Shown here piece after piece: positions 1 through 20,913 of a stretch of 20,913 nt of DNA. The notes below the pieces were generated by a model. The model ran no database searches. It was not told where the DNA came from and worked only from the letters and a program-made list of their open reading frames with translations. This stretch comes from a virus. Both the position numbers and the translations under genes were made by a program. The first letter of the stretch is position 1; each line of letters begins with the position of its first letter. Where the stretch lies: the IMG/VR virus record IMGVR_UViG_3300031758_005256, positions 1-20,913 of that record; one strand, written 5' to 3'.

Positions 1-717
1 CTCTTCTGCTGAACCTGTTGTTGGTGTTAAACTAGCTGTTACAAATGATATATCATTCCAAACTACTTCTAATTTTGGTTGATAAATTGTATTAGTTTCT
101 TTTGAAAAGAATTTAAGTAGTCCATAATCGGATGTATCGTTTTCAGCCTCTAAGCTATGATGAAGTATAAATCCATTATTTGATACTGAGCCACTTAACC
201 ATATATTAACAATGTTTGTAACATCCATTCTTATATCAGCTTCTTCATAATTATAAGATTGAGATGCTGAGCCGCTTAAATACCACACCCCACCTTCAGC
301 GTTTGCTGAACCTGTTGTTGTGTTTCCGGATGTAACATAAACCGCTCCGCCCGCTGTTGTATCATATGAAACCCATTTATTACTTCCATTTCTATATTTC
401 CAACTAACACCATCTGAAGTTATATTATCAAATTTAGTACCCGTTCCCATTGTCCAACTTTGAGAAACGGCGTTGGCATATATTGTATATTCCAATGGAA
501 TTTCTTCGGCTTGTGCTGATTTTAAATTTAAATACACAGTCGAACCGCTTGGTATTCCCATATTGGAAACATCAAATTTTATTAAGGTTCTTGCAATATC
601 TTTTATAGAACCATAATATAGTTTACCAACCTCTAATATCTCATCTCTACCTGCGTTTTGTTCAGGTTGTTGTAGGTAGATACTGGCATCGTATGATGAT
701 GTGAAAAATTTATGCAT
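1..717 (-). CDS. DNRLRE-like beta-sandwich protein, partial (likely virion/baseplate periphery)
   Basis: The reading frame is open from an ATG at 717-715 to the left edge, giving 239 codons; the C-terminus lies outside the window. The protein opens with MHKFFTSSYDASIYLQQPEQ, and then has the pattern of DNRLRE-type domains: an 'NAGRDEILEVGK' segment, a segment like 'RTLIKFDVSNMGIPSGSTVYL', then a beta-rich region with Trp/Gly motifs and 'DIRMDVTNIVNIWLSGS'. Such domains are beta-sandwiches found in secreted and surface proteins; in phages they may serve as adhesion or structural modules (family knowledge plus inference). It directly follows the gp6 homologue in transcription order, one base beyond its stop, so it belongs to the baseplate operon and could be a wedge-periphery or fibre-associated protein. 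The exact role is unknown. The domain call is from pattern memory, not a search. Confidence 0.72.
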   Translation of the reverse strand, partial: MHKFFTSSYDASIYLQQPEQNAGRDEILEVGKLYYGSIKDIARTLIKFDVSNMGIPSGSTVYLNLKSAQAEEIPLEYTIYANAVSQSWTMGTGTKFDNITSDGVSWKYRNGSNKWVSYDTTAGGAVYVTSGNTTTGSANAEGGVWYLSGSASQSYNYEEADIRMDVTNIVNIWLSGSVSNNGFILHHSLEAENDTSDYGLLKFFSKETNTIYQPKLEVVWNDISFVTASLTPTTGSAEE

Positions 718-6207: not shown

Positions 6208-6611
6208 TAAATTTTTGATTTAATATCATCTAATTCTATTTGAATATCAACCAATTTTTCTTCATTTTTCTTTTCAATTTCGTTTACTGTATCTTCTAAT
6301 TCAGTAAGTAATTGATTTTTTTCATGCTCACTTAACCAACCATCTTCACCAATACCCTTTGCCTCTGCTGCTGCTAATCTTTGTGCAATTGTTGCAAGTT
6401 TAATAAGATGGTCATCGTTCTTAACCGATACCTCTATTAAGTCTTTGATAATTGGAGCAATAACAGTTGCTTCACCAACATTCTTAATTAGTTTCCTCAA
6501 TGATTCAATCAAATCGGAAATGTTTTTCTTTTTGTTTTGTTGGTTTTCGTATATATCTTTAAATAATGATGATAAATTTTTACCATCAAATAGTTGAAAT
6601 TCTGATGCCAT
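6207..6611 (-). CDS. Hypothetical helical protein next to the gp5-like hub
   Basis: This unrecognised 134-aa protein appears almost entirely alpha-helical. A Lys/Asn-rich helix (residues 20-45) is followed by an Ala/Ile-rich helix (RLAAAEAKGIGEDGW) and a C-terminal coiled coil rich in Glu/Lys (LEDTVNEIEKKNEEKLVDIQ). It overlaps the neighbours at both ends by one base (TAATG junctions at 6207 and 6611). It could be a tail-hub partner or assembly chaperone, but nothing in the sequence decides this. Confidence 0.7.
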   Translation of the reverse strand: MASEFQLFDGKNLSSLFKDIYENQQNKKKNISDLIESLRKLIKNVGEATVIAPIIKDLIEVSVKNDDHLIKLATIAQRLAAAEAKGIGEDGWLSEHEKNQLLTELEDTVNEIEKKNEEKLVDIQIELDDIKSKI

Positions 6612-7384
6612 TATATTATGTTGTTATCTACTATATAATTATAAAGTTCTTCACTTATTAGATTATAACCATTTTCATTGGGGTGTTTTGATGGTATTTC
6701 TTCAAATGAATTGGGGTATTCCCAAGCTGATTCATCTGATGTTTTAACTAAGAAATCCCTAATGGTTTGTTTAGCGAATCCCCAATAATTTTTTTTATTT
6801 ATCAAATGTGTAATATCATCTTCTCTATTTAAATCTTGCACCATCATATCAAAAGCATCTAGCATTAGATATTTAACGCCATATTCTTCTAACATCTTTT
6901 GTAAGAAAACAATATAATTTTGATTTATTATATTATAATAGTTTTGATTAAACATATTTTCTAAAAAAAACTTTTTATATTGTTCTAAAAATCCGTTGTA
7001 CTTATCATCACCATATTTGTAAGATTCAAAAAACTTATGTGGTAATAGTGCTAGTTCTTTTACAGACCAACTAATCCATTCACCCTTTGGTAAAAAATGT
7101 ACGTGGTCTCTTAATGATGAACTCCACATTATAATAACCAAATCTCCTTTGTGTATTTTCCCATTTCTTAAATCTGCAATTACATCGTTAAAAATTAAGT
7201 TATTCGCTCTACCACTCCATCCATTATTTTCGTGGTCACATCTTAATTTACTAGCTAATTTTATTGGCCAAGAATATTTGTTTCGAAAATCTTTAAGATA
7301 CATTCTATCTTTTATAGAATTTTCTTCATCCAATCTACAGCCTTGACCTTCTGTCCAACTATCTCCGTATGCGTATAATTTCAT
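6611..7384 (-). CDS. SGNH/GDSL-fold protein coupled to the carbamoyltransferase
   Basis: The 257-aa product begins with block I of the SGNH hydrolase fold (GDSW at residues 7-10, in KLYAYGDSWTEGQGC). Block II is probably WSGRANN, block III is replaced by IIMWSSSLRD, and block V is SKHPNENGY. Family members hydrolyse or transfer acyl groups, often acetyl groups on polysaccharides. In its three relatives near 17-19 kb the catalytic His is preceded two residues earlier by Asp (DWH, DSH, DGH); here that position is Ser (SKH), so the triad may be incomplete. The start overlaps the carbamoyltransferase stop by four bases (ATGA), implying coupled expression. A role in glycan modification is inferred from that partner. 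Confidence 0.8.
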   Translation of the reverse strand: MKLYAYGDSWTEGQGCRLDEENSIKDRMYLKDFRNKYSWPIKLASKLRCDHENNGWSGRANNLIFNDVIADLRNGKIHKGDLVIIMWSSSLRDHVHFLPKGEWISWSVKELALLPHKFFESYKYGDDKYNGFLEQYKKFFLENMFNQNYYNIINQNYIVFLQKMLEEYGVKYLMLDAFDMMVQDLNREDDITHLINKKNYWGFAKQTIRDFLVKTSDESAWEYPNSFEEIPSKHPNENGYNLISEELYNYIVDNNII

Positions 7385-15848: not shown

Positions 15849-16427
15849 TTATACTAATTTTTTAGATATGGGTATTTCTAATATATTTGTTTTTTTATAT
15901 CTGTATTTTGAATTTAACATAGCATCGCATTTTGGATTACTTATATTCAAATAATTCATCAACTTAATTCTATCTATGCCGGTTTCGAAAATACCCTCAT
16001 ATGTTATAAATAATTCTATATGTGGGTTATTTAAAATATCATTTTGCATTACATTGATATCTGATTCAATTGATTTTATTTTATCTTCATTTTCAATAAC
16101 CCAATTTAAGTCTACCAAATAATTACTATGCCAAACATTTGTTTCTAATGCAATGGCATTACTTTCTGCACATTCTCTTACGTTTGTACGAGTTATTCCT
16201 ATAATTTTATCCCAATGAAAATGTTTTACTCTATTCCACTCTTCACCCGGAAATACTTTAACAACCATCGGGTCATTTTCTTTTCTCAATTTATTTAAAA
16301 ATATATTAACATCATTTCTCCATTCTGAAAATGGTTCGTGCATATATTCTATATTGGTTTCATATCCAATCCATTCACCAATTCTAGTACCACCAACTCT
16401 GCCTGCGGCAATTAATAATATTCTCAT
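15849..16427 (-). CDS. Sulfotransferase-like protein 1
   Basis: The 192-aa product begins with a phosphosulfate-binding loop after strand 1 (LLIAAGRVGGTRIGEWI; loop residues 9-15). The second PAPS-contact motif appears at Arg80 to Ser89 (GITRTNVRECAESNAIA). EPFSEW after strand 2 is also common in the family. Such enzymes transfer sulfate from PAPS to hydroxyls or amines of sugars or other molecules. The loop is Gly-Gly-Thr where the next gene has Thr-Gly-Ser-Thr, so this is the more diverged copy. It is shorter than typical sulfotransferases (about 250-300 aa). It starts one base after the stop of sulfotransferase 2. Confidence 0.72.
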   Translation of the reverse strand: MRILLIAAGRVGGTRIGEWIGYETNIEYMHEPFSEWRNDVNIFLNKLRKENDPMVVKVFPGEEWNRVKHFHWDKIIGITRTNVRECAESNAIALETNVWHSNYLVDLNWVIENEDKIKSIESDINVMQNDILNNPHIELFITYEGIFETGIDRIKLMNYLNISNPKCDAMLNSKYRYKKTNILEIPISKKLV

Positions 16428-16428
16428 A

Positions 16429-16956
16429 TTAAATCATATTACGTTTACCATTTCTATACTTCTTAGAATTATCTAATTTTAAAACAGTCGATATTTTTAA
16501 ATAATCTTTTACTGATTTTAAACCATTACCATAATATAAATCCTCATATGTAATGTGTAAGCAATTTTCACACTTACTTAGTATCTGATTTTCTTCTTTT
16601 ATAATTTGCTCCATACGATTTAATTCATTGGTATTTTCTTTTAAGAATGAATCATCTATTGTATATGGAGAAAAATATTTTTTAACATGTTCTGCGTATA
16701 ACCTACTTTCAGCTTGCTCTTTTAGATTATTTCTGACAAGAACAATACACTTATCAAAACTATTTCTAACTAAATCATATTTAGCTTCCGATGGAGTTAA
16801 TTTTATTATAATATTTTCTACATCATTTATTATTTTTGAAAAATTTTTATTGTTATAAAACCCTTCTCTTTGATAATCACATTTATAATGGGTCATCAAC
16901 AGTTGAGCTAACGATGTTGAACCCGTTCTGTGAGTTGTGTATATTAGTAGTTTCAT
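16429..16956 (-). CDS. Sulfotransferase-like protein 2
   Basis: The 175-aa product has a classical 5'-phosphosulfate loop (YTTHRTGSTSLAQLL, residues 7-20), a 3'-phosphate motif (VLVRNNLKEQAESRL, Arg75 and Ser84), then TYEDLYYG and the C-terminal KYRNGKR that corresponds to the family's basic RKG-type PAPS contact. It should therefore bind PAPS; the acceptor is unknown. The first 74 bases, which encode the phosphosulfate loop, overlap the 3' end of the preceding SGNH gene in another frame. The start cannot move inward without losing that loop. Confidence 0.8.
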   Translation of the reverse strand: MKLLIYTTHRTGSTSLAQLLMTHYKCDYQREGFYNNKNFSKIINDVENIIIKLTPSEAKYDLVRNSFDKCIVLVRNNLKEQAESRLYAEHVKKYFSPYTIDDSFLKENTNELNRMEQIIKEENQILSKCENCLHITYEDLYYGNGLKSVKDYLKISTVLKLDNSKKYRNGKRNMI

Positions 16957-17743
16957 TTTTAATAAAATTTATAATAAAATTTGCTATATTAATATGCCCA
17001 TCATAACTAGGATGCCAATCGTTTATCCAACCATTAGTATCCGCATATATTGTTAGGTTTAATTCGTCCACAAATCCGAACATCCCTCTCGGATGTATTT
17101 CCATTAGATTAGTTGGTTTCGATAAATATTTTGGCCAAATATCTTCATTTATAATATATGTAGTTATTCCCATTGATTTTAAAATCTTTGTAAATTCTAC
17201 AATTCTCCAAATACTACGTTCATAATATTTTTCAGTCATAATAAATTCTGAAAAAAAATTGCGAATTGTATCGTATTTGGTTTTATTTAACTTTAAATTA
17301 TTATTTTTTAAATCCTCTTGACTGTTTACATATTTTAATATATTTTCAGATTCTTTACGATACTCTTTTAGTAAACTAGTAACAAATATAGGTTTAAGAA
17401 AATAAGGAGAATCAAACATATTAGTTCCCATTAAAGTATTTTGTTTTAAAAAAGGAAAATCAAATCTACCAATGGTAGATGTTTGTATTATAACAATGTC
17501 GGATGGAGTGATAGTTGATGTATGTTCCAATAATGTATCAAAAATAGTATCAGTAGTAATACCATTTTTGGATAAATCCACTAACTCTAATGATAACGAG
17601 TCTGCGACAATCTCATTCCAAATTTTTTTACCAGCTACTATATAGTTTTTAAAAGGACTAAGATAGTTATGAGCCGGATTATCAAAATATTTACATCCAT
17701 GTCCTGCAGTAAAGCTATCCCCAAATGTCCAAAGTTTACTCAT
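16883..17743 (-). CDS. SGNH/GDSL-fold protein, tandem copy A
   Basis: The longest of the tandem trio (286 aa). It has block I GDSF at residues 8-11 (KLWTFGDSFTAGHGC), a central IIQTSTIGRFDF in place of the usual GxND block, and block V with Asp and His (NDWHPSYDGH). Nucleophile Ser10 and the D-x-H pair are present, so this copy looks potentially active. Likely activities are esterase or acyl transfer on glycans (family knowledge). About 30 residues beyond the catalytic His the reading frame continues into the sulfotransferase gene (74-base overlap). The start overlaps the stop of copy B by four bases (ATGA). Confidence 0.8.
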   Translation of the reverse strand: MSKLWTFGDSFTAGHGCKYFDNPAHNYLSPFKNYIVAGKKIWNEIVADSLSLELVDLSKNGITTDTIFDTLLEHTSTITPSDIVIIQTSTIGRFDFPFLKQNTLMGTNMFDSPYFLKPIFVTSLLKEYRKESENILKYVNSQEDLKNNNLKLNKTKYDTIRNFFSEFIMTEKYYERSIWRIVEFTKILKSMGITTYIINEDIWPKYLSKPTNLMEIHPRGMFGFVDELNLTIYADTNGWINDWHPSYDGHINIANFIINFIKNETTNIHNSQNGFNIVSSTVDDPL

Positions 17744-18411
17744 ATTAAAAATTTATAAAAATAATCTGATTGAATAAATTGTCCTTTTTCACCAAAATGA
17801 CTATCGATTAATTTACCCCCTGTCTCTGTAGTTATATCTTCTGCGCCCAGCCTTATCAAATCTTCCCTAAAATTATTTGTTGATAAATAATGGGGTTTGT
17901 TTAATTTTTTATCAAATGTCCAATAGATTAATTTAAATCCAATTAATTTAGATAATAAATTTATAATTACCTCCCAATTATAAACTTCATTAATCCATTG
18001 AGTGTTAGTTCTATTATACAGAATTGAATTAACAACATCTATATTTATACCATTTAATAAAACAGGATTATCAATGTGTTCCGGTTTAAATTGATTGGGC
18101 CTTATTGTAACAAATCCATTCGTTGTTTCATCTACTAATCTAAATCTTTGAACGTAACCCCAACCAATGATAACAATATCGTATTTTTGTATTTGCTCCA
18201 CACATCTACAAAACATATCAAATATATCATAGTTGGATTGGCCTGAAACAGCCATATTTTTTAGTTCCGTTCCTAATTCTTTTGATAGTAATTCGGACCA
18301 GCTTTTTGGGAAAGTACCACCCCTATATTCTTTGTAATACTTAAATCTTCTTTCTTTAGTTTTACCAAAGATAGCTGAATTGTTATCACCAAATACCCAT
18401 AACTTATTCAT
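17740..18411 (-). CDS. SGNH/GDSL-fold protein, tandem copy B, nucleophile replaced
   Basis: The 223-aa protein starts MNKLWVFGDNNSAIFG: the same N-terminus as copy C, but the block I nucleophile Ser is Asn (GDN). It shares with copy C the segment IVIIGW-x5-RFRL followed by FVTIRPN. Block V reads DSHFGEKGQF, keeping D-x-H but losing the following aromatic/Pro-Gly-His pattern. By sequence this may be a catalytically dead partner, or may use Ser12 instead. It is coupled to copy A by an ATGA overlap and lies three bases from copy C. Confidence 0.8.
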   Translation of the reverse strand: MNKLWVFGDNNSAIFGKTKERRFKYYKEYRGGTFPKSWSELLSKELGTELKNMAVSGQSNYDIFDMFCRCVEQIQKYDIVIIGWGYVQRFRLVDETTNGFVTIRPNQFKPEHIDNPVLLNGINIDVVNSILYNRTNTQWINEVYNWEVIINLLSKLIGFKLIYWTFDKKLNKPHYLSTNNFREDLIRLGAEDITTETGGKLIDSHFGEKGQFIQSDYFYKFLI

Positions 18412-18414
18412 AAA

Positions 18415-19092
18415 TTATTTTTTAGATATTAAATCATAAAAATATTCAGATAATATTTTGTGGCCGTTCTCACTATAATGTCCATCGTTTATATATCCAT
18501 TAGTTTCATCTGATATCTTTTCTAAATCTTTTATACATTCAATTTTAATAATATTCATATTATTATTAATAAATTGAAATGGAGACCAATGAATTACCTT
18601 ACATTTATTATTTAAATAAAGATTTATTATTTTGATAAATCTATTTACTTCATATTGAAATAACGCATTATCCCTATTAATCAGTAATTCGGTTATAGTT
18701 TTTAATGATATATTTTCAAATTCTTCTGTATTTGTTAGTGTACTTTGGGAGAACGATACGGTATCCAAATTGAAATTATTTGGTCTAATTGTTACAAAAG
18801 AATTGTTTTTACCAACTAATCGAAATCTAAGGGTAGATGACCAACCAATAATTACAATATCATTTTCTTTTATACTATCTATAACATCCAATATTGTTTC
18901 AAATATAGTATAATTATCGATACCACCTATTGCACAATTAATTAACCTATGTTGGATTTTTAAACTTAAAAAATCTCCCCAAACAAGTGGGGTATATCCT
19001 TTCCAATTTTTATACTTTAATCTCCAACTTTCTAAATTATTTAATTTATTTGTTGCAGAGAAGGAATCGCCAAATACCCATAACTTATTCAT
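18415..19092 (-). CDS. SGNH/GDSL-fold protein, tandem copy C
   Basis: The 225-aa protein starts MNKLWVFGDSFSATNKL with an intact GDS nucleophile (Ser10). It carries IVIIGWSSTLRFRL and SFVTIRPNNF in the middle and ends with block V NDGHYSENGHKIL, giving Asp and His. It resembles copy B closely in length and shared segments, so the two look like a duplication followed by divergence. The substrate is unknown. It follows the 31-aa gene after a 10-base gap. Confidence 0.82.
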   Translation of the reverse strand: MNKLWVFGDSFSATNKLNNLESWRLKYKNWKGYTPLVWGDFLSLKIQHRLINCAIGGIDNYTIFETILDVIDSIKENDIVIIGWSSTLRFRLVGKNNSFVTIRPNNFNLDTVSFSQSTLTNTEEFENISLKTITELLINRDNALFQYEVNRFIKIINLYLNNKCKVIHWSPFQFINNNMNIIKIECIKDLEKISDETNGYINDGHYSENGHKILSEYFYDLISKK

Positions 19093-19102
19093 TCAAATAT
19101 AA

Positions 19103-19198
19103 TTAAGAATGCTTTGCCTTAATGGCTGCGAATAAGATTTGTAATAATGATAAAGAAGCCGCTTTATCGGAAGGAGTAGCTGATGTTTTTGTGCTCAT
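19103..19198 (-). CDS. Tiny protein/peptide (31 aa) next to the Hint protein
   Basis: ATG at 19198-19196, TAA at 19105-19103. The product is a Ser/Thr/Lys-rich head (MSTKTSATPSDKAASLS) followed by a short hydrophobic helix (LLQILFAAIKAKH) and Ser. It fills an otherwise empty 117-bp gap and has the same A/T-rich AAATAAAATG-type leader as other genes here. It could be a small membrane-active or regulatory peptide. Its position beside an ATP-grasp/Hint protein also makes a substrate peptide conceivable. Confidence is limited by length. Confidence 0.5.
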   Translation of the reverse strand: MSTKTSATPSDKAASLSLLQILFAAIKAKHS

Positions 19199-19209
19199 TT
19201 TATTTAAAT

Positions 19210-20901
19210 TTATTTTTGTTCATCATATACTAAAATACCATTAGCATAAAAATTATGATTATTTTCTACAAATAAGTTATATGTTTGAATAGGTGATACT
19301 ATTTCTGTTATAGATTCAATTTCAACTTTGTTACCATTAATATCAATACATACACTACTAATATCCATTTTAAGGATTTCACCATTATACCATTCTTTTG
19401 TTTTTTCTGGACTATATGATATTAATGTACCATCTATATTATAATATGGATGGTCAAATGTGTTTAAAATGGATGTACCATTTTTGAATTTAATTTCTAT
19501 AATATCATTTTGTATTGGAGAAACTATTTCTAATACTTTATTTAATTCTTTTTGGTTTGTATTGAAATTGAAAGACCAAACTAAATCACCCACTACTACA
19601 TCTTTTATCTCTTTCTCAATTCCATCCATTGATATTAGTGTATCTTCCGAAAAACAACAATAAGGGTATGTGTGACATTTATTGTGTAATAATATATTAC
19701 CAACATTATTTTTGGTAATATCATTATGCGTTGTACCGGCAACAAATACATCATCAGGCTCTATGTCTAAAATAGTAATACTACCGGAATACCATACATT
19801 TTCTTTAGATATTATTGGTAGAGCAATTTGATTTGTAGTTACTATATAATCATTTAAGTTAACATCAGCCGCACTTACGAATCGTATATTATTATCAACC
19901 GAACTACTTATTACTAATAATTCACTATTAGATAATATACTAGAACCACTAATTGTATCATTACCATATACTATATTAACTAACCAACCCTCATAAGCTT
20001 TGTTAGTAATAAAATTTACCGAAGATGTTTCGTATGTGATAGTATTCAATTCAGATGATGATATATACCAATCCAATGTTTCTTCCGCTGAAGCTGTCAA
20101 ACTTAAATTAGGGAATCGAACCGATTTTATAGTATCTCCCATTGATAGCGTTTCTATGTTAACCACTTCTTCAATACCATTGACTATTTTAACAACTTCA
20201 TAGCTGCCGGGTACACCAAATGATAAATAATTTGGGTTAGAGAAGTACATAGCTCTCCATTTATTATCAAGTCTATTGTTTGTATAGGTTATAATAGATG
20301 TATCTAATGGTAATTGATTGTTGGTGATACTAATACCAATTGGTATCATAGTTTCAACATCTGATAATAAAATAACATTTAATCGTATTATATTACTAAT
20401 TTTACCAGCAGCATTTAAATTTGTATTTATTTCAAATTCTTGTATCATATAATCATCCGCTAATTCGGATTTTAAAGTATCCAATTGCGTTGATGATGTA
20501 ATATTATAAAAAGCTGGATAGTCAATTCTATCAAAATCTGGCAAAGACTTCTTTACTATTACATTTGGTGATAATCCATTATCAACTAAATTAGTTAGAT
20601 TATCTAAAATTGAATCATCGTCTGTATATTTAACATATGTCTTTGGTAGTATATTTTCATTATTCGAATCAAACAACAATTTTGCAACAGCCGATTTATC
20701 TCTACAATATGTATCATCTATAATAGCTGTTGCATCATATGAACACCTTAAATAAAATGTATTAGGTTCATCTGTTATAGATGGTGCAACCACACTATTA
20801 TTATTTACCCAAATAGTTGAAAATTCTATTGAAAATTCATTACATTTGGCTTCAAACAAATTTAATACCGCATCAACAACGTGCTTCTTTTTATATATCA
20901 T
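19210..20901 (-). CDS. ATP-grasp-like / tandem Hint-like fusion protein
   Basis: The 563-aa product reads as three parts. (1) Residues 1-225 show an ATP-grasp-like order of short motifs: DKSAVAKLLF...ILPKTYV (68-90), NVIVKK (113-118), DYMIQEFEI (150-158) and IRLNVILLSD (172-181). This is suggestive only. (2) Residues about 232-409 look like a degenerate Hint domain: VVNIETLSMGDTIKS, ending DVFVAGTT...NILLHNKC with the intein-type His-Asn at 406-407 but no clear N-terminal Cys. (3) Residues 416-563 are a good Hint domain: CFSEDTLISMDGIEKEIKD with Cys416, block B TFDHPYYN (His484) and block F YNLFVENNHNFYANGILV, ending YDEQK instead of His-Asn. Hint domains cleave or splice proteins at Cys. The function here is unknown. 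ATG at 20901-20899 is the first in frame; 12 bases remain to the window edge. Confidence 0.75.
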   Translation of the reverse strand: MIYKKKHVVDAVLNLFEAKCNEFSIEFSTIWVNNNSVVAPSITDEPNTFYLRCSYDATAIIDDTYCRDKSAVAKLLFDSNNENILPKTYVKYTDDDSILDNLTNLVDNGLSPNVIVKKSLPDFDRIDYPAFYNITSSTQLDTLKSELADDYMIQEFEINTNLNAAGKISNIIRLNVILLSDVETMIPIGISITNNQLPLDTSIITYTNNRLDNKWRAMYFSNPNYLSFGVPGSYEVVKIVNGIEEVVNIETLSMGDTIKSVRFPNLSLTASAEETLDWYISSSELNTITYETSSVNFITNKAYEGWLVNIVYGNDTISGSSILSNSELLVISSSVDNNIRFVSAADVNLNDYIVTTNQIALPIISKENVWYSGSITILDIEPDDVFVAGTTHNDITKNNVGNILLHNKCHTYPYCCFSEDTLISMDGIEKEIKDVVVGDLVWSFNFNTNQKELNKVLEIVSPIQNDIIEIKFKNGTSILNTFDHPYYNIDGTLISYSPEKTKEWYNGEILKMDISSVCIDINGNKVEIESITEIVSPIQTYNLFVENNHNFYANGILVYDEQK

Positions 20902-20913
20902 TACAAATTTAGT

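Follow-up and report, generated by a model that had tools for sequence, protein, structure and literature searches.

A viral DNA stretch of 20,913 bases (IMG/VR record IMGVR_UViG_3300031758_005256, hereafter the window) carries on its minus strand, at positions 19210-20901, an open reading frame (ORF) of 563 aa, which a first-pass annotation made from the sequence alone had taken for an ATP-grasp-like head fused to two Hint-like domains. The ORF proved real and its frame stays open up to the window end, though the copy is 5′-truncated: a 41-kb viral contig (IMGVR_UViG_3300008110_005936, locus L001) encodes the same protein with 617 aa, at 100% identity across the 563 aa, and 54 N-terminal residues are missing from the window version. 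Residue numbers below are those of the full 617-aa protein, i.e. the window number plus 54. Three domains were delimited by AlphaFold2 modelling and PDB searches, namely a permuted ATP-grasp domain (1-280), Hint1 (283-461) and Hint2 (470-617), and together with a small ORF they make up the following features of the locus:

20224..20913, minus strand: circularly permuted ATP-grasp domain, residues 51-280, with residues 1-50 beyond the window end (AlphaFold2, Foldseek and VIA)
19681..20217, minus strand: Hint1, residues 283-461, ending in His460-Asn461 and having no block A Cys or TxxH (VIA fold and conservation)
19681..19686, minus strand: codons of His460-Asn461, the predicted C-terminal cleavage site of Hint1 (conservation)
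19657..19680, minus strand: octapeptide KCHTYPYC, residues 462-469, with two Cys, between both Hint domains (aligned family tails)
19213..19656, minus strand: Hint2, residues 470-617, with Cys470 (Cys416 of the window) and TFDH, ending in LVYDEQK (Pfam, PDB phmmer, fold and residues)
19103..19198, minus strand: small ORF of 31 aa (MSTKTSATPSDKAASLSLLQILFAAIKAKHS), the proposed substrate or partner (translation and family-wide linkage)

A profile scan, whose E-values are relative to the candidates only, detected relatives of the protein in at least 277 viral stretches; the best 80 of the 277 were kept, giving 79 new loci, 77 usable ORFs and 52 previously unseen sequences. The degenerate pattern YDxxAxxDxxYxxDK was found in at least 119 viral stretches, and with L044 and L096 dropped as non-family and the L001 copy included, this set comprised 117 proteins, 99 of them complete (18 incomplete ones were left out). 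The main sample to which the counts below refer holds 152 complete proteins (99 + 52 + L204) with 122 distinct heads, identical copies being counted among the 152 and five duplicates (L002-L006) of the same contig or window being excluded. L204, on a 3.7-kb contig of a Pelagibacterales metagenome-assembled genome, is the one relative found in the bacterial and archaeal genome collection, and its contig is possibly phage-derived. By profile, 16 of 17 records hold a single copy and the remaining one holds two; in the 211-kb record of L080 (G006), two ATP-grasp head genes lie 38 kb apart. The junction pattern matched one contig, and single-protein scans (two viral, one genome) returned the same phage or no match at all. 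No relative of the head was found among INPHARED phages by tblastn with the N-domain, a second family member and an S74-type member, and the Hint1 segment alone gave matches only at E 2. A BFVD fold search had no match at E ≤ 1e-3, and in PHROGs the window protein matched only weakly, in its Hint region and to entries without known function (phrog_21587, 5e-4), while the heads of six relatives had no match judged real. Two phages whose proteins rank among the best matches of the window's baseplate wedge protein, Microcystis phage Mel-JY01 and Flavobacterium phage immuto, lack the gene in the 41-kb stretches inspected, their whole genomes not having been profile-scanned.

The predicted local distance difference test score (pLDDT) was 86.6 for the whole-protein AlphaFold2 model and 90.1 for residues 1-280 folded alone, both with 65 relatives as input, the separate folding being done because the structure-match list of the full model was filled by Hint2 and held little on the other domains. 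Foldseek with domain 1-280 returned YgiC as the best match (1.2e-7) and human glutathione synthetase at 5.3e-7; the first 12 rows were occupied by YgiC, YjfC, glutathione and homoglutathione synthetases, GspS and, at 4e-3, a nematode glutathione-synthetase-like effector. The first 27 VIA rows were glutathione-synthetase-like ligases as well, topped by yeast glutathione synthase (Z 10.3, root-mean-square deviation (rmsd) 4.8, 232 aligned), and model residues 1..276 aligned in chain order to 122..484 of 1m0w. Tubulin tyrosine ligase complexes ranked next and were aligned only from model residue 50 onward, which, with the collinear 1-276 alignment, indicates the circularly permuted order that YgiC/YjfC, GspS and eukaryotic glutathione synthetase have in sequence. 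The ATP-grasp-like N-terminus of the first-pass annotation thus stood as regards the predicted fold, window residues 1-225 giving ATP-grasp; the domain is circularly permuted, and the Mg motif D9...E21-x-N23 lies outside the stretch that had been seen.

Residues D9, E21, N23, K171 and R227 are kept in 152/152 proteins and K123 in 151/152; D9, R106 and the motif 109-123 were partly selected by the search patterns, whereas E21, N23, K171 and R227 were not. The spacing D-x11-E-x-N equals that of D318/E330/N332 in E. coli gss, which we take to be its Mg ligands; the phage head has Gly7 where gss has R316, the Arg two residues ahead of the Mg Asp. By its modelled fold and its kept Mg/ATP residues, the head was confirmed as a member of the ATP-grasp superfamily, and it probably belongs to the class of enzymes that couple a peptide carboxylate with an amine, as do glutathione synthetase, GspS and YgiC/YjfC, the latter two carrying the name peptide-spermidine ligase in RefSeq and in the title of a reference. 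A series of results weighs against this assignment. A profile comparison between the head and YgiC reached a probability of 0.83% (E 0.067), and the head had no sequence match to any solved PDB structure. Among the 25 of 30 Pfam families listed for 65 members, RimK was the sole ATP-grasp family (4/65 members, best E 0.012) and GSP_synth was absent; in place of the glycine-rich loop that follows the ATP lysine in YgiC, the head has a P175/P183 segment. In these models the resemblance is structural, with sequence homology beyond the motifs lying below profile detection; the head also differs from YgiC, YjfC and GspS in being fused to Hint.

Residues 283-461 matched the RadA intein 4e2t (Z 15.3, rmsd 2.0, 139 aligned by VIA on the predicted fold), in line with the Hint-like middle segment ending in His-Asn-Lys-Cys (His460-Asn461-Lys-Cys) that had been proposed, and its window residues 232-409 took the Hint fold in the structure prediction. 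A block A Cys was present in 0/152 proteins within residues 278-295 and TxxH in 0/152 within residues 365-395, and in this Hint1 differs from BIL and PT-HINT domains. Asn461, in 152/152, is the lone invariant among the 181 positions 281-461; His460 is kept in 150/152 and D or H of block F in 141/152. At +1, the position behind Asn461, 50/152 proteins have Ser or Thr and the window copy has Lys; Cys never occurs there. By intein chemistry, a variable +1 residue and missing Cys1 and TxxH beside a kept His-Asn best allow cleavage after Asn461 without splicing, and Hint1 would accordingly be a C-terminal-side cutter. Ser1 or Thr1 may stand in place of Cys1, since the exact residue-1 column is unsure (Thr is found at column 288 in 27/99). 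Insertion of ordinary inteins into a phage gene, without any special role, would account for the Hint folds and for the Ser/Thr at +1, and inteins do occur in phages; yet no host protein resumes after Hint1, the block A Cys and TxxH are missing and +1 is not conserved, and Hint1 is present in 152/152 with no member in which it is precisely missing and its flanks joined, all of which leaves this explanation extremely improbable. The chief point against peptide release comes from six of the 152 members that have merely 3-5 residues past Asn461 yet keep it, two of them with Tyr at the position of His460; Asn461 may therefore serve another role, e.g. a structural one.

A plain Cys-rich tail of 26-55 residues follows Asn461 in 129/152 proteins, and with the 11 and four that have such a segment before a further domain, a Cys-containing segment comes after Hint1 in 144/152. 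The Cys number was even (6, 8 or 10) in 98/98 unique plain tails with no odd case, and also between Asn461 and Cys1 of Hint2 (12/12) or the serine of an S74-like domain (4/4 unique), one Cys-free case in each included. The tails share descent, so these are not independent events, though the Cys spacing nonetheless varies widely, with 46 patterns, the Cys-free one included; a parity control on neighbour proteins was uninformative, the small Cys-rich neighbours being mostly of a single 6-Cys kind. Across 32 pairs of near relatives, 202/205 aligned Cys were kept against 532/820 other tail residues, and mean identity was lower in the tail (0.70) than in the head (0.91) and Hint1 (0.89). The fixed Cys frame with free loops indicates a disulfide peptide, and the tail would thus form disulfides. 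The ratio of nonsynonymous to synonymous changes (pN/pS), taken from single-change codons, was 0.10 for the head, 0.09 for Hint1 and 0.13 for the tail, the last showing no positive selection, a point against the reading preferred below. The window segment KCHTYPYC is a short form of this usually much longer peptide. The last two residues are Lys and then a hydrophobic one (I, L, V, A or F) in 54/122 unique proteins versus 35/852 neighbour ORFs, possibly as an acceptor lysine or an assembly signal.

Hint2 matched Pfam Intein_splicing at 8.8e-8 with 32.5 bits in the window ORF (cut-off 35.8) and 36 bits in the frame of the longer contig; a Tetrahymena BIL domain was matched by PDB phmmer at 6e-9, and the predicted fold fitted 6y75 (Z 25.0, rmsd 1.4, 146 aligned). 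The C-terminal Hint of the first-pass annotation was borne out in this way, and Cys416 (Cys470), TFDH and the lack of a terminal HN (LVYDEQK) were all as it had described. Its view that this domain is limited to N-terminal-side cleavage agrees with the residues, Cys1 and TxxH being present and the terminal HN absent, and such cleavage would be expected here. Hint2 occurs in 12/152 proteins, with TxxH in 12/12 and a terminal HN in 9/12; the HN is missing from the window copy, L059 and L126, which all end in YDE(Q/E)K. Like BIL and PT-HINT domains, Hint2 has the fold, Cys1 and TxxH, with Lys or Phe next where HN is kept, and PT-HINT profiles matched the Hint2 of several members; unlike them, the window Hint2 lacks the terminal HN. 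In another 5/152 (4 unique), the window copy not among them, a short C-terminal S74-like domain is present, with Ser and Lys five residues apart, the spacing of the S74 autocleavage dyad described in PMC8326128. Cys1 was found in 12/12 Hint2 members and the Ser-Lys spacing in 5/5 S74-type members, though neither is an independent test because the classes were sorted by patterns that include them. The module classes are exhaustive, with no protein of the 152 outside them. On the tree, at least 4 label changes are needed to place Hint2 and a separate one for every one of the four S74 rows, counts limited by L204, L038, L129 and L008, which sit on long branches with unsure placement; both domains thus appear to have been joined repeatedly. 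Hint2 and S74 would both cut N-terminally and therefore both would leave a peptide with a free C-terminus.

The S74-like members also bear on another explanation, namely that the chain is a virion protein, i.e. a fibre or surface appendage with the disulfide tail as receptor-binding tip and the ATP-grasp and Hint1 as an uncut scaffold. Two S74-type members matched phrog_6121, a 'virion structural protein' (PHROG 2.1e-7 and 4.4e-6), one had a tblastn match to a Microcystis phage S74 structural protein (E 4e-2), and S74 domains serve tail-fibre and tail-spike assembly as described in PMC7824862 and PMC8326128, which tells against a self-processed peptide; the hypervariable C-terminal tip and the Asn461 of the tail-less members would fit as well. 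The domain resembles the S74 intramolecular chaperone (ICA) in being short and C-terminal with Ser and Lys five apart in five members; it differs from phage-fibre S74 in its place after the Hint and usually a Cys-rich peptide, and in matching no Pfam family at E ≤ 1 in the two members scanned, so that the S74 label itself is weak. Against a virion protein, the ATP-grasp catalytic residues are invariant, 23 listed genes lie between the fusion gene and the baseplate wedge gene in the window, and the mini-ORF is left unexplained. A virion protein is rather unlikely, if the most credible of the other explanations.

A small conserved ORF of 24-52 aa lies just downstream of the gene in 151/151 complete genes (99 + 52). 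In the first set, an ORF of 22-50 aa starts at most 300 bases past the gene in 99/99; in the second, one was listed by script in 52/52, the listing for L142 being a chance ORF whose true counterpart, of 52 aa, was found by eye. In L204, an ORF of 49 aa comes directly behind the gene. The presence of such an ORF is weak evidence by itself because 93/700 control ORFs had one of 22-50 aa within 70 bases, and the case rests on likeness, judged by eye and in groups, and on a pN/pS of 0.21 (26 independent pairs). The C-terminal residue is Ser in 72/112 unique mini-peptides, a set that includes one wrong ORF (from L126). With a reverse DNA pattern for one mini-peptide group, 36 stretches were found, 28 real and 8 chance; 27/27 testable real ones lay immediately behind Hint1, the head being within reach in 25 of them, and one had no upstream sequence. 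Conversely, a dominant-tail pattern fell within family proteins in 59/59 stretches (57 with the head in reach), and a mini-ORF followed 58/58 testable tails of this type; both pattern sets overlap the earlier loci. In PHROGs, five of six mini-peptides had no match and the sixth had E 0.32.

Two further explanations turn on this small ORF. The order enzyme, Hint, variable C-terminus and small ORF is that of a polymorphic-toxin-like system, in which a PT-HINT-like Hint1 would free a tail toxin and the ORF would encode its immunity protein, and the PT-HINT profile matches in Hint2 point the same way. In 54 pairs whose tails share 54% identity, the mini-ORF shows 86%, and the idea of an immunity gene was rejected because the mini-ORF does not track the tail; with no secretion domain seen by reading, such a toxin is very improbable. 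The other is a ligase that modifies host or phage targets, with Hint1 and the tail regulatory or anchoring and the mini-ORF product a subunit or an attached tag. The conserved active site would suit it, as would a mini-peptide more conserved than the tail and with a conserved C-terminus. It also has a phage precedent in the R2K clade, whose ATP-grasps are predicted phage peptide ligases in PMC4431377 and PMC7824862, like those considered here, and for which such modification has been proposed. The words 'Hint' and 'cysteine' are absent from the main text of PMC4431377, and no R2K family was among the 25 of 30 Pfam families listed for the 65 members (a Pfam scan only, not a motif comparison). 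A ligase of this kind gives no account of Hint1 with Asn461 in 152/152 or of the Cys segment in 144/152, and we consider it unlikely.

Based on the computed fold, conservation and linkage, we infer cleavage, disulfides, ligation and the mini-peptide as a substrate, and tentatively read the gene and its mini-ORF as one phage unit making a small self-processed peptide, a possible reading that we prefer to the alternatives, though with less than even confidence. Asn461 would cyclise and break the chain, freeing the disulfide peptide from the head; in the window copy this peptide would be KCHTYPYC, bounded on its far side by Cys470 of Hint2, and where Hint2 or an S74-like domain is present, it would trim the far end. 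The ATP-grasp would spend ATP on an amide bond, with the C-terminus of the 24-52 aa mini-peptide as the likeliest carboxylate donor and with three candidate amines, namely the N-terminus set free by cleavage, a Lys close to the C-terminus, and a polyamine. Disulfide formation would take place on the virion or following lysis; no secretion signal or domain was seen by reading, no signal predictor having been run. The mini-ORF product could serve as a structural partner instead of a substrate, which would weaken this reading. The fully detailed version of the reading is improbable, well below the general one: a two-part ligation in which Hint1 frees the N-terminus of the peptide, the ATP-grasp attaches the C-terminus of the mini-peptide and Hint2 or S74 defines the far end, giving conotoxin-like, fast-diversifying peptides in hundreds of phages, released at lysis or displayed on the virion. 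The first-pass annotation was thus partly supported overall; it had the ATP-grasp head as the part released, activated or attached, whereas the head's place in a phage family, the invariant Asn of Hint1, the usually longer Cys-rich tail and the tiny gene make the peptide after Hint1 the likelier processed part.

Around 64 loci (two representatives without a complete gene being excluded from the count), the commonest neighbours encode a zinc-ribbon protein (51), a 2OG-Fe oxygenase-like protein (45) and a sulfotransferase-like protein (34), the latter two names resting on below-cut-off Pfam matches of the window contig's neighbours and on reading. The zinc-ribbon-like protein of L001 (3336-3572) has the motif CGxCGCPxxKKxF and matches phrog_13558, of unknown function, at 4.2e-6. 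Sulfotransferase-like proteins were recognised by reading at 15849-16956 of the window and 4187-4807 of L001, and one of three scanned matched Pfam (Sulfotransfer_3, 2.9e-4, below the cut-off). SGNH-hydrolase-like genes, read from their FGDSFS or FGDNNS starts, stand three in tandem at 16883-19092, with no Pfam match at 0.01 and only weak PHROG matches, and a fourth lies at 6611-7384. Tryptophan-halogenase-like (8 loci), radical-SAM-like (18) and adenylylsulfate-kinase-like (12) genes also lie near the unit by reading only. A Shine-Dalgarno-like motif precedes 1/24 listed window genes, and the best named matches of the baseplate wedge protein are to a Microcystis phage (40%) and Flavobacterium phage immuto (38%), a metagenomic phage scoring highest; from these two observations and the known traits of the phylum, our guess at the host is Bacteroidota.

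Graspetides and other ribosomally synthesised and post-translationally modified peptides have an ATP-grasp enzyme beside a short peptide gene, and the present family resembles them in this adjacency; it differs in that no leader or core motif was recognised by reading and in its head, which is of the glutathione synthetase type and Hint-fused. No description of the assembled unit, i.e. a permuted ATP-grasp, a Cys1-less Hint, a hypervariable Cys-rich peptide and a mini-ORF, was found in the open-access literature with the search terms used, subscription papers and preprints lying outside the search. The component folds are known, and the assembled unit looks like an apparently undescribed phage system that makes or displays peptides. 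The unit is common, given its spread over the viral stretches surveyed, and each step is testable with one protein and one 31-residue peptide. If the reading is true, phages would own a peptide-processing and peptide-ligating machinery, and the family would supply varied natural disulfide scaffolds, together with a Hint that perhaps cuts on the C-terminal side only.
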